From Oscillospiraceae bacterium (GTDB lineage: Bacteria; Bacillota; Clostridia; Oscillospirales; Oscillospiraceae): 64,000 nucleotides of DNA. The notes beneath the pieces were generated by a model. That model did not search any database, was not told the DNA's origin, and was given only the letters and a program-made list of their open reading frames with translations. Below, piece after piece: positions 11,752 through 62,055 of the stretch. Every line of letters starts with the position of its first letter. The first letter of the stretch is position 1. The position numbers were made by a program, and so were the translations under genes. Location: NCBI GenBank assembly GCA_017430455.1, contig JAFRMX010000008.1, forward strand, positions 62,001 to 126,000, in the 5' to 3' direction.

Positions 11752-11912
11752 GGTTGAATCCCGTTGGAAAGTAGGAATTTCCTTGCCGAAGGAGTAAAAC
11801 TCTCAGGACAAAAGACAGCGGGGGGACGGTGATCCGGAGAAGCCCTTTAAAAAGGGGGCCGAAGGGGCAAAGCTTAAAAGCTAATCTCTCAGGCAAAAGG
11901 ACGGATGGCATA
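11752..11912 (+). ncRNA. Tandem glycine riboswitch
   Basis: Two copies of the glycine-aptamer core follow each other. The first has GCCGAAGGAG (11785-11794), then CTCTCAGGACAAAAGAC; the second has GCCGAAGGGGCAAAGC (from 11858), then CTCTCAGGCAAAAGGAC (from 11886). This is the known architecture of the two-aptamer glycine riboswitch. It lies in the leader of a sodium:amino-acid symporter, a known genetic setting for this class. An intrinsic terminator (11945-11979) sits between the second aptamer and the ribosome-binding site, so control is probably by transcription termination. Whether glycine turns the gene on or off cannot be decided from sequence alone. Confidence 0.92.
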
Positions 11913-27835: not shown

Positions 27836-29797
27836 TCAGTTCACTTTCAGGTTCTCCCAGAGAGTGTTCATATAAGCCAAGGCGTCCTGGTCGAGGTTCT
27901 TGTAGGCTGTCCGGTTGTACAGCTCTGAGAAATTTTCGACACCCGGATACAGAACTTCGATCGCTTCCTCACCCATGTCCTCGATATACTCTTCGCTGTT
28001 GTATACGATACTGTTGGGGCAGGCGTAGCAGATATACTCGGCATTGGCCACGGCCGGTTCCTCGCTCAGCATCCAGTTTATGAAGATCTCGGCAAGTTCT
28101 TTGTTTTCACAGCAGGAGGGGATGCACATGGCGTCTATGAAATAGTTCGTAAATTCAGGAGTATAGAATCTGAGATCCACATCCTCGGCTTCAGCGTCCA
28201 GCATCGTGAAATAGTCTCCGGCGTAATACACGGCGATATCCGCTTCACCGGATTCCATCATATTGTATACCTCATCCATTACATAGCTCTTGACAAGCGG
28301 CCTCTGAGCCAGAAGCTCGTCAAACGCGCGGTCCCAGAGAACGGGATCCGTATCGTTCACATCGAGTCCGAGCTTATACTGCGCGACACCGAACGCGTCC
28401 CTGGGGTTGTTGAACTGGAGTATCTGCCCGGAGTATTTTTCGTTCCAGAGTACATCCCAGCCGGTAACATCGGCTTCGTCGACCTTGTTAGCGTTGTATA
28501 TTATTCCGATGACGCCGTAGGTATACGGAACAGTATATTCATTCGATTCATCGTAGTAGAGGTCCTTGAAGCTCTCATCTATGTATTCATAGTTTGGGAT
28601 GTTATCGAAATCAAGCGGCAGGAGCAGGCCCTCGTCCTTCATTCTGGCTATCATATAATCGGAGGGAACTATGACATCGAAGCTCACGGCGCCGCTCTTG
28701 ATCTTGGAATACATATCCTCGTTGCTGGAGAATGTCGTGTAGTTTACCTTGACCTTCTGGCCGTATTCCTCGAGATACCAGTCCTCGAAAGCCGAGATCG
28801 TGTCGAGGGAGTCCTCCGAGCCGTCGGAGATATACTCGCCCCAGTTGTAGACATTCAGCGTAAGCGTATCCCTTCCGGTCCCGAGAGCGGCTATCAGTAC
28901 TATTACGACGACGAGAACGGCGGCTGCAGCAGACAGATATACTTTGGGCGATATGACCCTGCGGTTTTCCACCCTTCTGCTCTTTCTCTGGGCTCTTCTC
29001 GCGTTGGCGGTGGAATCGGACTCCTCGTCCGAGAGATTCGTAAATATGAGAAGTATTAAAATGGCAAAGAATATTATGGTGGCCAGAGCGTACATCTTCG
29101 GGGTCACCGTCTTCTTCGTCATATTGTATATCCTTATCGGCAGAGTCTGGAAATCGTTGCCGACAGTGAAATAGGAGATGACGAAATCATCCAGAGAAAG
29201 CGTGAATGCCATCAGTAGACCGGTAATGACTCCGGGCATTATATCCGGCAGTACTACCTTGAAGAAAGCGCCTACAGGGGTACAGCCGAGATCCATGGCA
29301 GCCTCAGGGAGGGCTTTATCCATCTGCTTGAGCTTGGGTATGACCTGGAGTATCACATAGGGGAGACAGAAGGTTATGTGCGCTATGAGCATGGTGCCGA
29401 AATTGAGGCTCGAGGAAGCTCCGAAGAGCCTTCCGACGAACACGAACATGAGCATGAGGGATATACCGGTGATGATATCCGGGTTTACCATAGGAATGTT
29501 TGTGGTCGTATCGATGGCGGTCTTCAGAAACTTGTTCCTGAGGCTGTTTATCCCGACCGCGGCGGCCGTGCCGAGGACTGTGGATATGACCGACGCCGAA
29601 AGCGCGAGAATGAGAGTGTTCCTCAGAGATCCCAGAGTCTCGGAGTCCTTGAAGAGTTCCCTGTACCAGAACAGGGAGGGCTCGGAGAAAACGGAGAGGC
29701 TGTTCGAGCCGTTAAAAGAGAATACAAGAAGTATCAGTATCGGCGCGAAGAGGAACAGCATTATCAGAACCGTAAATATTTTTGACCAGACTTTCAT
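27836..29797 (-). CDS. potCD: Fused polyamine ABC permease and substrate-binding protein (PotC-PotD)
   Basis: This 653-residue protein joins two transporter parts. Residues about 1-265 form a PotC-type permease with six membrane helices and the EAA-like loop DLGCTPVGAFFKVVLPDIMPG. After a linker and an extra helix (about 288-308), residues about 312-653 form a PotD-type periplasmic-binding domain beginning LTLNVYNWGEYI. In a Gram-positive cell the fusion tethers the binding domain to the outer membrane face. It makes up a polyamine (spermidine/putrescine) importer with PotB and PotA upstream; the substrate is inferred from family. It overlaps potB by four bases. Confidence 0.92.
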   Translation of the reverse strand: MKVWSKIFTVLIMLFLFAPILILLVFSFNGSNSLSVFSEPSLFWYRELFKDSETLGSLRNTLILALSASVISTVLGTAAAVGINSLRNKFLKTAIDTTTNIPMVNPDIITGISLMLMFVFVGRLFGASSSLNFGTMLIAHITFCLPYVILQVIPKLKQMDKALPEAAMDLGCTPVGAFFKVVLPDIMPGVITGLLMAFTLSLDDFVISYFTVGNDFQTLPIRIYNMTKKTVTPKMYALATIIFFAILILLIFTNLSDEESDSTANARRAQRKSRRVENRRVISPKVYLSAAAAVLVVVIVLIAALGTGRDTLTLNVYNWGEYISDGSEDSLDTISAFEDWYLEEYGQKVKVNYTTFSSNEDMYSKIKSGAVSFDVIVPSDYMIARMKDEGLLLPLDFDNIPNYEYIDESFKDLYYDESNEYTVPYTYGVIGIIYNANKVDEADVTGWDVLWNEKYSGQILQFNNPRDAFGVAQYKLGLDVNDTDPVLWDRAFDELLAQRPLVKSYVMDEVYNMMESGEADIAVYYAGDYFTMLDAEAEDVDLRFYTPEFTNYFIDAMCIPSCCENKELAEIFINWMLSEEPAVANAEYICYACPNSIVYNSEEYIEDMGEEAIEVLYPGVENFSELYNRTAYKNLDQDALAYMNTLWENLKVN

Positions 29798-30657
29798 GCT
29801 TCCAGCTTTCTTTCTATATCCGCAAAGTGCTGCATAACTGCCATGCCAGCCAGCAGGATTATCATGAGAATAAGCGCTATGGCGGCCGCGAAATGCAGGT
29901 TGTTGGCTACGTACTGGCCTTCTATCGCGTCACCGATGAGATAGAACTTGCCGTTGCCGAGCTTCTGCGAAATGTAGAAGGTCGAGATCGAGGGGATAAG
30001 GACCATCGTTATTCCGGATACGACGCCCGAGAGGCTGAGCGGGAGAACGACTCTCTTGAAAACTCCGACGGAGTTGCAGCCCAGGTCCCTGGCGGCCTCG
30101 GTGAGCTTCGGGTCCAGCTTCGCGAGGACCGAGTAGATCGGCATTATCATATACGGTATATAGTCGTAGACCATACCGATAACGACAGCGCCCTCAGTCC
30201 CAATGATGTGGACCGGCCTGAGGCTCAGAAGACCGAGAAAACCGTTGAGGATCCCGGTATCCTGCAGTATCGTCATCCAGGCGTAGGTTCTGATCAGGAA
30301 GTTCATCCACATGGGGATCATTATGACCGTAATGAATATCTTCTGCGCTCTCGGAGAGGACTGGGAGATTATATAAGCCATGGGGTAGCCCAGAAGCAGG
30401 CAGACTATCGTTGAGATCACCGCCAGCTTGAGCGAGCGGAGGAAGATGAGTATATAGGTGTGTACCTCGGAAACCTGTCCGGCGTCGTTCGTGACCGAGG
30501 AAGTGGTTACAAAAAATTTCCTTATATTTTCGAAGGTGAAGTTGTAATCATTGTCGGTCAGCGCGTAATAGGCTACGAATATCAGAGGCACTATCATGAA
30601 GAGAAAGGCCCAGACCGAATACGGCGCGAGGAGCCATTTCTGCATTTTCCTGGTCAT
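29794..30657 (-). CDS. potB: Polyamine ABC transporter permease PotB
   Basis: This 287-residue permease has six predicted membrane helices and the cytoplasmic coupling loop [21 protein letters not shown]. The N-terminal pattern [19 protein letters not shown] is typical of PotB. It dimerises with the permease half of PotCD to form the channel. It overlaps its neighbours on both sides by four bases, so the three genes form one tightly coupled operon read from the promoter at 32.04-32.07 kb. Confidence 0.92.
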
Positions 30658-31775
30658 TCGCCGTCCTCGCTTTCATCGATCTCCTCGAGCTCATCGAACT
30701 CGTTGGAGAATGAGGAGTAGTCTCCGTAGAGGCCGGAGTACTCGGATTTGTGCATGACGTGAATGGCGTCCGGGTCTATCTTGAGGCTTATATGCTCGTC
30801 CACATCCACAAAATCGGTGGTCTGGATCATCCACTTGAAGCCTTTGATATCGACGATTATCTCATAGTTGACGCCCATGAAGGTCACGGAGGTGACGACT
30901 CCGCTTAGCAGGTCTTCCTGCTCCGGAACGATATCCACGTCCTCGGGTCTGATAACGACGTCCACGCTCTCTTTTTTCTCGAATCCGAAGTCCACGCACT
31001 TGAAGGTCCTGCCTGAGAAACGGACTTTGTAATCTTCCAGCATCACGCCGTCGAGGATGTTGCTCTCACCGATGAAATCGGCCACAAAAGCGTTCTCGGG
31101 CTCATTGTATATATCTATCGGAGTGCCGATCTGCTGGATCTTGCCTTCGGACATGACTACGACCGTGTCGGACATGGAAAGCGCCTCTTCCTGGTCGTGG
31201 GTAACGAAAACAAAGGTGATCCCTGTGGCTTTCTGGATCTTCTTGAGCTCCTGCTGCATATCCTTGCGAAGCTTCAGATCCAGCGCTGCCAGCGGCTCAT
31301 CCAGGAGAAGTACCTTGGGCTGGCCGACAAGAGCTCTGGCAATGGCTACTCTCTGCTGCTGTCCGCCGGAGAGCTTTGTAACGCTTCTCTTGGCAAAAGA
31401 GCTCAGAGCGACCAGCGAGAGCATCTCGTTTACCTTCTCCTCAATCTCGGCCTTGGGCAAGCCCCTCTCCTTGAGCGGGAAAGCGACGTTGTCGAAGACG
31501 TTGAGATGGGGGAAGAGCGCGTATCTCTGGAAAACGGTGTTTACGTTCCGCTTATGCGGAGGCACGTCGTTTATCTTTTCTCCCATAAATATGACATCGC
31601 CCTGATCCGGCGTCTCAAAGCCTCCGATAAGGCGGAGAGTCGTGGTCTTTCCGCAGCCGGAGGGTCCGAGAAGCGTCAGGAACTCGTTGTCGTAGATATC
31701 GAGATTGATATTGTCGAGTACCGTCTCTCCGTCGAAAGCCTTGCTTACATTTTTAAGTTCGATGATTTTCTTCAT
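30654..31775 (-). CDS. potA: Polyamine ABC transporter ATP-binding protein PotA
   Basis: This protein of about 373 residues has a complete ATPase domain: Walker [10 protein letters not shown] near residue 37, signature [15 protein letters not shown], Walker [13 protein letters not shown] and switch His in [12 protein letters not shown]-terminal regulatory beta domain of the TOBE type follows (from about residue 240). It ends in a long acidic tail ([14 protein letters not shown]), which is unusual. The frame opens at 31829, but the ATG at 31773-31775 gives the standard family start MKKIIELKN. The longer reading frame would run through the terminator hairpin of the leader, so it is rejected. 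Confidence 0.94.
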
Positions 31776-32035
31776 ATTCAAGCCCTGCCTTATATAAAAA
31801 AGCGGCGTATGTGACATTACATACACCACTCAAACTTCAGGATACAACAATATCCCAATCGGTTCTTAGAGTCTATACAACAAAGATGCTCTTACTACTC
31901 TTATTGACCATTTCACAAGTCTGCACGTAACGCATAACGGTTTATAGTAACCAACTTATAAAACTTGAGCTTTTAACTCAATCAATAATCGGCGCTCGGC
32001 CGGGGCAATCTTTCTTGGTGAAACCAATTGAGACT
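31776..32035 (-). ncRNA. Structured leader RNA of the pot operon, class unknown
   Basis: Between a strong minus-strand promoter (start near 32035) and potA lies a leader of about 260 bases with no convincing gene. Its first bases (32033-32022, TCTCAATTGGTT) can pair with 31864-31853 (AACCGATTGGGA) over 12 bases including two G-U pairs, closing a domain of about 160 bases with smaller hairpins. These include TTGGT/ACCAA, CGGC/GCCG, TTGAG/CTCAA and GGTT/AACC. Next come the hairpin GGATA/TATCC, which competes with the closing helix, and then an intrinsic terminator 20 bases before potA. This is the layout of a riboswitch or other attenuator. I do not recognise a known class. Confidence 0.6.
31795..31827 (-). 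terminator. Attenuator-type terminator in the potA leader
   Basis: On the minus strand GGTGTATGT (31827-31819) pairs with ACATACGCC (31812-31804) with one G-U pair and a six-base loop, followed by GCTTTTTT. It lies inside the leader, 20 bases upstream of the potA start, so it must be conditional for the operon to be expressed. Confidence 0.85.
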
Positions 32036-32041
32036 GTGTGC

Positions 32042-32070
32042 ATTCTAACAACGAGGTCAGCTTATGTCAA
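32042..32070 (-). promoter_or_regulatory. Promoter of the pot leader/operon
   Basis: On the minus strand a perfect TTGACA (32065-32070) and TAGAAT (32042-32047) are 17 bases apart. Transcription is expected to begin near 32035, directly before the 5' arm of the long leader helix. Confidence 0.82.
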
Positions 32071-32156
32071 TAAAAAAATGGTGCAATTTCAAATAATTCT
32101 TTACTATATTAAAAATTGTGATAGAATAGCACAAAAATGACAGGAAACGGATAACT

Positions 32157-32519
32157 ATGGAAGACAATCACGGTGAGGAACCGAAAGTCGAAATAACGAA
32201 TGAGAGCGTGGGAAAGACCCTTATGATCGCCTCCGCGCTGGCTCTGCTCGCGGTAAGCGTTATATTCAAAAGAGGCGGCATGGATGAGAAATGGTTTTTC
32301 TTCAGCTTCGGGCTCTGCCTCTGCGCCTTCATCGCGGGGCTTATCATGCTCGTAATGATACGCTTGGTCATGAAACGGATAAACAGCGGCGAGGAAGGGG
32401 ATGACCCCGAGTCGGATATAATCATAATAAACCGGCGCAAATACGAGGATATAATGAAAAAGGTCTCCGACCTGGAAAACCAGGTGAAGAATCTCAAGGA
32501 AAAGAACACAGACCAATAA
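32157..32519 (+). CDS. Small two-helix membrane protein with C-terminal coiled coil
   Basis: No family is recognised. The 120-residue protein has two membrane helices (about residues 20-37 and 46-70), then an acidic loop and a heptad-like helix at the end (YEDIMKKVSDLENQVKNLK), which suggests oligomerisation. AGGAAACGG precedes the ATG. A minus-10-like TAGAAT (32132-32137) lies just upstream. The gene is transcribed alone, divergent from the pot operon, and ends at a strong terminator. Confidence 0.7.
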   Translation: MEDNHGEEPKVEITNESVGKTLMIASALALLAVSVIFKRGGMDEKWFFFSFGLCLCAFIAGLIMLVMIRLVMKRINSGEEGDDPESDIIIINRRKYEDIMKKVSDLENQVKNLKEKNTDQ

Positions 32520-38229: not shown

Positions 38230-38247
38230 CCGAGCATAACCGAATAG

Positions 38248-38356
38248 AACTTCAGGGCAGGGAGCATTTCCCGACCGGCGGTAAAGTCCGCGAGCAGTAA
38301 GATGCACGATCCGGTGCGATTCCGGGACCGACAGTAAAGTCTGGATGGAAGAAGTT
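38248..38356 (+). ncRNA. FMN riboswitch (RFN element)
   Basis: The closing helix AACTTC (38248-38253) / GAAGTT (38351-38356) and the conserved core are visible: AGGGCAGGG, GACCGGCGGTAAAGTCC, CGCGAGC, GATCCGGTGCGATTCCGG, GACCGACAGT and GGATGGAAGAAG. FMN binding turns genes off in this class. It lies in the leader of ribU, with a terminator hairpin between, so high FMN should stop riboflavin uptake. Confidence 0.96.
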
Positions 38357-38382
38357 TTTTTGTTTTGTCTTTTCGTACATGC

Positions 38383-47795: not shown

Positions 47796-47975
47796 CTAAT
47801 TGACGTCGGACCCTGTCTCGACCGTCCTCTCGATCGAATAAATCTTCACATCTCCGGTGACCGAAAGACGGTACCGGAGATGATCGCATCTTTTGGGCAG
47901 AACGGAGATAGTGTAAGTGCGCAGACTTTCCGACCCCGCCTGGTCCTTCGTTATACCCGCTTGTATAACGGTTAC
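47796..47975 (-). pseudogene. 3' remnant of an unidentified gene (about 59 codons, no start)
   Basis: The minus strand has an open stretch of 59 codons ending at a TAG (47796-47798). Its translation includes AGITKDQAGSESLRTYTISV, RYRLSVTGDVKIYS and ends TVETGSDVN. The composition looks like a genuine, beta-rich protein C-terminus, and its GC-rich codons match the chromosome. Upstream it runs straight into a stop (TAA) and the AT-rich inverted-repeat element, with no start codon or ribosome-binding site. I infer a gene cut at or near the element's left end. Phage-structural proteins often have such tails, but I cannot assign the family. A hairpin (47849-47882) lies within it. Confidence 0.5.
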
Positions 47976-61551: not shown

Positions 61552-62055
61552 ATGAGACTCTTTGTCGCCGTAAAGCTGAGTCCCGGAGCAAAACAGCTTA
61601 TAAAAGATACGCAGATGATCTTCAGAAAGCTGGATGTTTCGGGAAATTACACAAGCGAAGAGAACATGCACCTGACCCTCGCGTTTATAGGTGAGTACGA
61701 CGACCCGGATAAGGTCATGGATGCCCTCAATGAGGTCAGTTTCGAGCCTTTCGAGATCACGCTCGGAGAGACCGGCAGATTCGGCGACCTCTGGTGGATG
61801 GGCGTATATAAAAGCGGGGAGCTCGACCTGCTCGCGGAAAAGGTAAGAAAAGCGCTCGACGACAAGGGCGTTCCCTATGACCCGAAGAAATTCAAAGCAC
61901 ACATAACATTCCTGAGAAGAGCGGTATATAAAGGAACGAAACCGGGCCGGATACCGGCAGAGCCTGTAAAAATGCCCGTTGAAAGCTTCAGTCTGTTCAG
62001 GTCCGACAGGGGCAGATACGGGATGATATATACGGAGATCGGAAAAGTACAATAA
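61552..62055 (+). CDS. thpR: RNA 2',3'-cyclic phosphodiesterase (ThpR/LigT)
   Basis: This protein of about 167 residues has the two H-x-T/S-x motifs of the 2H phosphoesterase superfamily: HLTLAFIG near residue 42 and HITFLRRA near residue 120, with the characteristic spacing. It opens MRLFVAVKLSPGAKQLI, as in ThpR. It is expected to open 2',3'-cyclic ends in RNA. The frame opens at GTG 61519, but AAGTGGAG supports the ATG at 61552. It is followed 14 bases later by an unrelated membrane protein gene. Confidence 0.88.
   Translation: MRLFVAVKLSPGAKQLIKDTQMIFRKLDVSGNYTSEENMHLTLAFIGEYDDPDKVMDALNEVSFEPFEITLGETGRFGDLWWMGVYKSGELDLLAEKVRKALDDKGVPYDPKKFKAHITFLRRAVYKGTKPGRIPAEPVKMPVESFSLFRSDRGRYGMIYTEIGKVQ

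Follow-up and report, generated by a model that had tools for sequence, protein, structure and literature searches.

The locus considered here raises the question of whether the RNA leader in front of a polyamine transporter operon of an Oscillospiraceae bacterium is a new kind of regulatory RNA, as a sequence-only reading had proposed, or a variant of something already on record, and how it might act on the genes behind it. Throughout, 'the window' denotes the whole 64,000-nt stretch of DNA that was analysed (positions 62,001 to 126,000 of contig JAFRMX010000008.1). The leader is about 240 nt long and lies on the minus strand, between a promoter and the potA start at 31775. The features of the leader and of the genes that follow it are:

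32042..32070, minus strand: sigma-70-type promoter, TTGACA-17-TAGAAT with an extended -10 (TG); 11 of 12 consensus positions match
32022..32033, minus strand: closing helix P1, 5' strand; partner 31864-31853
32015..32027, minus strand: P2 hairpin, UUGGU-UUC-ACCAA; the relatives' counterpart is GGAUA..UAUCC; rivals P1 in the fold
31990..32010, minus strand: remnant region at the site of the relatives' RF02440 module and GGCAAC/GUUGCC hairpin; a CGGC/GCCG hairpin (32002-31990) is the sole survivor
31868..31988, minus strand: conserved core P6-P12, 121 nt, common to Firmicutes (BLAST, covariance model, pair counts)
31902..31987, minus strand: P6 helix, 31987-31981 with 31908-31902; near-invariant
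31966..31980, minus strand: P7 hairpin; double changes at 6 of 6 pairs among relatives
31910..31964, minus strand: P8 helix, 31964-31953 with 31921-31910; its 3' strand adjoins and lies partly within the antiterminator
31939..31952, minus strand: P9 hairpin, GGUU/AACC; GAUU/AAUC elsewhere
31922..31934, minus strand: P10 hairpin; its 3' side contributes to the antiterminator strand
31917..31933, minus strand: antiterminator strand, 31933-31922 with 31825-31814 and 31920-31917 with 31831-31828; duplex -17.3 kcal/mol; also in the MFE fold of the transcript ending at 31812
31868..31901, minus strand: P11, AGAGU/ACUCU, enclosing the P12 hairpin (pair counts)
31853..31864, minus strand: closing helix P1, 3' strand; partner 32033-32022
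31800..31831, minus strand: intrinsic terminator stem-loop, then a T run (sequence and fold)
30654..31775, minus strand: potA, spermidine/putrescine ABC transporter ATPase (NF043075, 557 bits, above cut-off)
29794..30657, minus strand: potB-like permease; top matches PotB/PotH, below the equivalog cut-off
27836..29797, minus strand: potC-potD fusion, permease plus substrate-binding protein; below the equivalog cut-off

Much of this anatomy had been described in the sequence-only reading. The strong promoter and the 12-bp closing helix with two G-U pairs (P1; duplex energy -15.9 kcal/mol) lie where it placed them, and TTGAG and CTCAA occur twice each, as it stated. The intrinsic terminator is present, but the span given for it (31827-31795) is displaced by about 4 bases. 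Compared with dinucleotide shuffles, the fold of the leader is better by 4.5 SD. P1 is displaced by other pairing in the fold of the full leader, depending on the exact 5' end, and the covariation that had been anticipated in this helix is weak: P1 is conserved within the genus, but 966 of 20,000 permutations were as good.

The leader has no counterpart in Rfam. Nothing in it reaches a gathering score, and at E ≤ 10 there are only chance matches to snoRNA and RAGATH-25 models; RF02440 (SpF59/ldcC) has no match in 31750-32160, even at E ≤ 10, and none anywhere in the window genome. RF02440 does lie directly 5' of the core in 8 of the 10 relatives' potA leaders tested, and the full leaders of relatives are longer than that of the window. 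The description of the RNA as unassigned therefore holds for the window sequence itself, but not for its orthologues before the same operon, which match RF02440 at 56–67 bits, and a pneumococcal RNA, SN20, was reported in 2010 (see below). Measured against the RF02440 definition (a 54-nt module with a GACC/GGUC stem and ACGGACAGCC..UGCCGA, scoring at least 37.2 bits), the window leader keeps a remnant only, with GGCCGAGCGCCGA in place of the relatives' GGGUCGAAUGCCGA; the GGCAAC/GUUGCC hairpin has also been lost.

The distribution of RF02440 clarifies its relationship to the core. It was detected in 17 of 398 phylum genomes, all of them among the 24 that bear the core and with the module adjoining it, while 7 of the 24 core genomes lack RF02440, including the window genome (one core copy, zero RF02440). 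RF02440 is thus an optional module of an RNA of ~250–330 nt, and the window leader, which fails the RF02440 definition, belongs to this larger class. No Rfam family covers the core in any relative tested. What the database misses is thus the larger and more widespread part; its model holds only the optional 54-nt piece, which is the piece lost from the window copy, and the window leader looked unknown for this reason. The module profile missed 35 of 194 distinct core loci, some of which are misaligned, truncated or interrupted. At least 15 module-free loci are clean, with a promoter, a 5' hairpin and a short hairpin at the module site (for example, L110, L130, L131, L133, L140, L152, L156, L161, L180, L195 and L200, and further L004, L010, L014, L027 and the window). 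The potA tree of the genus, in which the window row forms a long branch, requires three separate changes of module state. One genome of the genus (G008) has two copies of the RNA, L014 and L065, one with and one without RF02440, and the module-bearing copy precedes a potB-like gene. The name of the ldcC motif reportedly derives from a 2017 survey, which is said to have associated the motif with polyamine genes; in the literature within our reach, we found no description of the motif itself.

Analysis of the genes behind the core links the class to polyamines. A DNA search found the core (31988-31852) in 66 of 99 related genomes, spread over several other families of the order as well; before potA in relatives its identity is 80–87% (BLAST, no model), and in the first 29 relatives looked at, ~100 nt separate it from potA downstream. 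The covariance model R1, which was not chosen by gene, detected the core in 24 of 398 phylum genomes, in all 24 cases before polyamine genes: speD (10), a carboxynorspermidine synthase-like gene (7), an Orn/Lys/Arg decarboxylase (6) and potA (1), with gene families confirmed on representatives. The synthase-like protein falls below the equivalog cut-off, yet has both saccharopine dehydrogenase domains. Outside the genus, 138 distinct loci, a set biased by the search pattern used to collect them, precede decarboxylase (67), speD (25), synthase-like (21), potA (15) and P-II (1) genes, the rest being unclassified or cut off. Named hosts include Streptococcus, Paenibacillus, Bacillus, Lachnospiraceae, Oscillospiraceae and Acidaminococcus. 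The RNA is widespread in Firmicutes with an almost exclusively polyamine gene context, and the window core, placed before potA-potB-potCD, conforms to it; the earlier proposal of a structured and conserved leader that is controlled by a terminator and linked to polyamines is strongly supported. In L066 and L211, a P-II family gene comes first after the RNA (PF00543 in L066, where potA is next). In L155 and L210, one of which is from Intestinimonas, the RNA precedes a gene for a long secreted protein, M28-type peptidase-like by eye, and this is the only clearly non-polyamine context seen. An Isosphaeraceae locus from the pattern scan (L123) was discarded as a chance match without the core.

Covariation supports the fold of the core. 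Over 100 loci, 90.7% of cells at the core pairs are paired and 23 of 45 pairs changed on both sides; 0 of 500 shuffles scored as high and slid partners reached 36–47%. Covariation is seen in P7, P9, P10 and P11, and P6 and P8 are near-invariant. We regard this as strong support and not as proof, because alignment A2 had been made to fit the model, and some shared ancestry survives the shuffle and permutation controls. Six loci (L043, L046, L052, L055, L057 and L067) carry inserts in core hairpin loops (P7 or P9), some with repeated segments in common, a pattern suggestive of small mobile repeats landing in loops of the core that tolerate them.

These data also bear on what kind of element the core is. 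Protein-bound leaders have highly conserved sequence islands too, and polyamines have general effects on RNA folding (PMC10853860), so that the core might be the site of an RNA-binding protein or an indirect responder to polyamines instead of an aptamer. We consider this unlikely: the core fold is elaborate and covarying, and it recurs in numerous families of Firmicutes, upstream of polyamine genes of several kinds, with no linked regulator gene noticed in an unsystematic look. Attenuation through a leader peptide (uORF) or a T-box would share the terminator/antiterminator anatomy common to such systems. That reading is highly improbable, and we rejected both forms of it, given that the core has conserved stop triplets (UGA, UAA and UAG) and indels that are not in threes throughout, and that a T-box covariance model has no match in the window or its relatives.

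To locate the pairing partner of the terminator, the terminator 5' arm of each of 167 leaders was scored against 22-nt stretches along its own leader. The duplex optimum, at a mean of -15.2 kcal/mol, lies over the P10 3' strand and the start of CUUGUG, compared with approximately -5 to -10 elsewhere. Arms paired with their own strand at a mean of -15.1 kcal/mol and with swapped strands at -12.2. None of 20,000 permutations reached such a difference, whether all leaders were taken, only those of the genus or only those outside it. The window leader conforms to the class in having a terminator 5' arm complementary to the P10/P8 3' strand: when the transcript stops at 31812, the computed fold is the antiterminator (-56.7), and for the full leader it is the terminator (-70.7). 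From these folds and the shared P10/P8 3' strand, core folding and antitermination are mutually exclusive; were a ligand to stabilize the core, an OFF switch would be expected. The sequence-only reading had drawn attention to a different overlap, that of a GGATA/TATCC hairpin with the 3' strand of P1. The overlap exists, but the best-supported alternative pairing is that of the terminator 5' arm with 31933-31922; because, on visual inspection, the relatives' leaders do not share the GGATA/TATCC overlap, we did not prefer it as the main switch.

Taking together the conservation, the covariation, the gene context and the mutually exclusive pairings, we think it likely that the leader is a cis-acting transcription attenuator belonging to a large class of Firmicutes polyamine-gene RNAs, in which core folding is set against read-through in an OFF switch. 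The class would comprise the P2 5' hairpin, the optional 54-nt SpF59/ldcC module, a small hairpin, the ~120-nt core P6-P12 and an expression platform, with the closing helix as a further part in the genus of the window; the window copy appears to have kept core and platform and lost the RF02440 module. When the core is folded (P8 and P10 formed, presumably with ligand bound), the P10/P8 3' strand would be occupied, the terminator would form and transcription would halt before potA. When the core is not stabilized, 31933-31922 would pair with 31825-31814 and the polymerase would read through. The net effect would be to lower polyamine import when polyamines suffice. The gene context suggests that the leader senses polyamines; direct sensing of a small molecule, and with it the OFF direction, is what we infer from the architecture. 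Spermidine is the leading guess for the ligand, as it is the point at which decarboxylase, speD, the carboxynorspermidine route and PotABCD meet.

The loss of the module could mean that the window copy has lost or changed its sensing. It may even be a decaying relic that no longer senses anything, its terminator acting as a constitutive attenuator: RF02440 is missing from the entire genome as well as the window, the window potA sits on that long branch, and speD and carboxynorspermidine synthase were undetected in a search of the window genome (made without a positive control inside that genome), so the polyamine economy may differ and the bacterium may depend on polyamine import. We find the relic reading rather unlikely, since the window core scores 128 bits against R1 (the window being part of its training alignment), P6-P11 and the antiterminator pairing are intact, and three separate lines of the genus, as well as other lineages, have copies that lack the module but retain an intact core. 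The preferred reading can be taken one step further. It is possible, although we put it forward tentatively, that the core alone suffices as a polyamine aptamer and represents a second natural class with no relationship to the SAM-I variant. RF02440 would in that case be a separable second domain, either another aptamer or a tuner, with a history of repeated loss, and the window leader would be a naturally occurring 'core-only' version.

The leader can be compared with several known systems. SN20 is an RNA of Streptococcus pneumoniae TIGR4 from the SP0915-SP0916 interval, with promoter and terminator mapped and a length of 314 nt by coordinates or 318 nt in the table of the paper (PMC2887815); F59 is a later, 82-nt fragment upstream of SP_0916 (PMC3395615), a gene for an arginine decarboxylase according to the title of PMC7531197, as cited in PMC10543277. 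In S. oralis, S. pseudopneumoniae and other streptococci, a decarboxylase gene of this kind has a leader in which the core is accompanied by a diverged RF02440 module, with a predicted length of 328–332 nt, and, judged through these close relatives, SN20 is very probably homologous to the core-class RNA. By analogous spacing, F59 would take in the module and only the very start of the core, which is probably why the RF02440 model is short. The gene downstream of SN20 and F59 differs from that of the window leader, and the window leader has no module. In the sampled genomes, RF02440 always lies directly 5' of the same core and before polyamine genes; however, it is 54 nt long and filed as an sRNA gene, and core, closing helix and expression platform fall outside its model. 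In the parts of the literature available to us, we found no regulation study of SN20 or F59, and only one class of natural bacterial polyamine riboswitch with convincing validation (PMC10853860).

That class, the SAM-I-variant spermidine riboswitch, is a termination OFF switch before polyamine genes, including ldcC and speE (PMC10853860). The window leader would work like such a terminator-controlled riboswitch in its logic, but with an unrelated fold: the known class is built on a SAM-I aptamer, whereas the relatives have no SAM-family match and the window has none at E ≤ 10, so we rejected identity with it. The ABC-leader of Pasteurellaceae is also an attenuator-like leader before potABCD, but its hosts are Gammaproteobacteria and a palindromic terminator hairpin is indicated for it (PMC2965389); the likeness is one of description.

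The division of the RNA into core and module has a practical consequence. As the database model covers only the 54-nt piece, an aptamer located in the core could escape binding tests confined to that piece, and aptamers missed through incomplete constructs are a failure mode described for orphan riboswitches (PMC7266159). The window leader, by contrast, is a compact natural module-free construct that allows the roles of core and module to be separated. Other RNAs in the window were assigned to Rfam families: tandem glycine riboswitch aptamers at 11754-11906 on the plus strand (RF00504, twice), an FMN riboswitch at 38244-38360 on the plus strand (RF00050, 108 bits) and a gut-2 RNA at 47926-47973 on the minus strand (RF02990, 49.8 bits).
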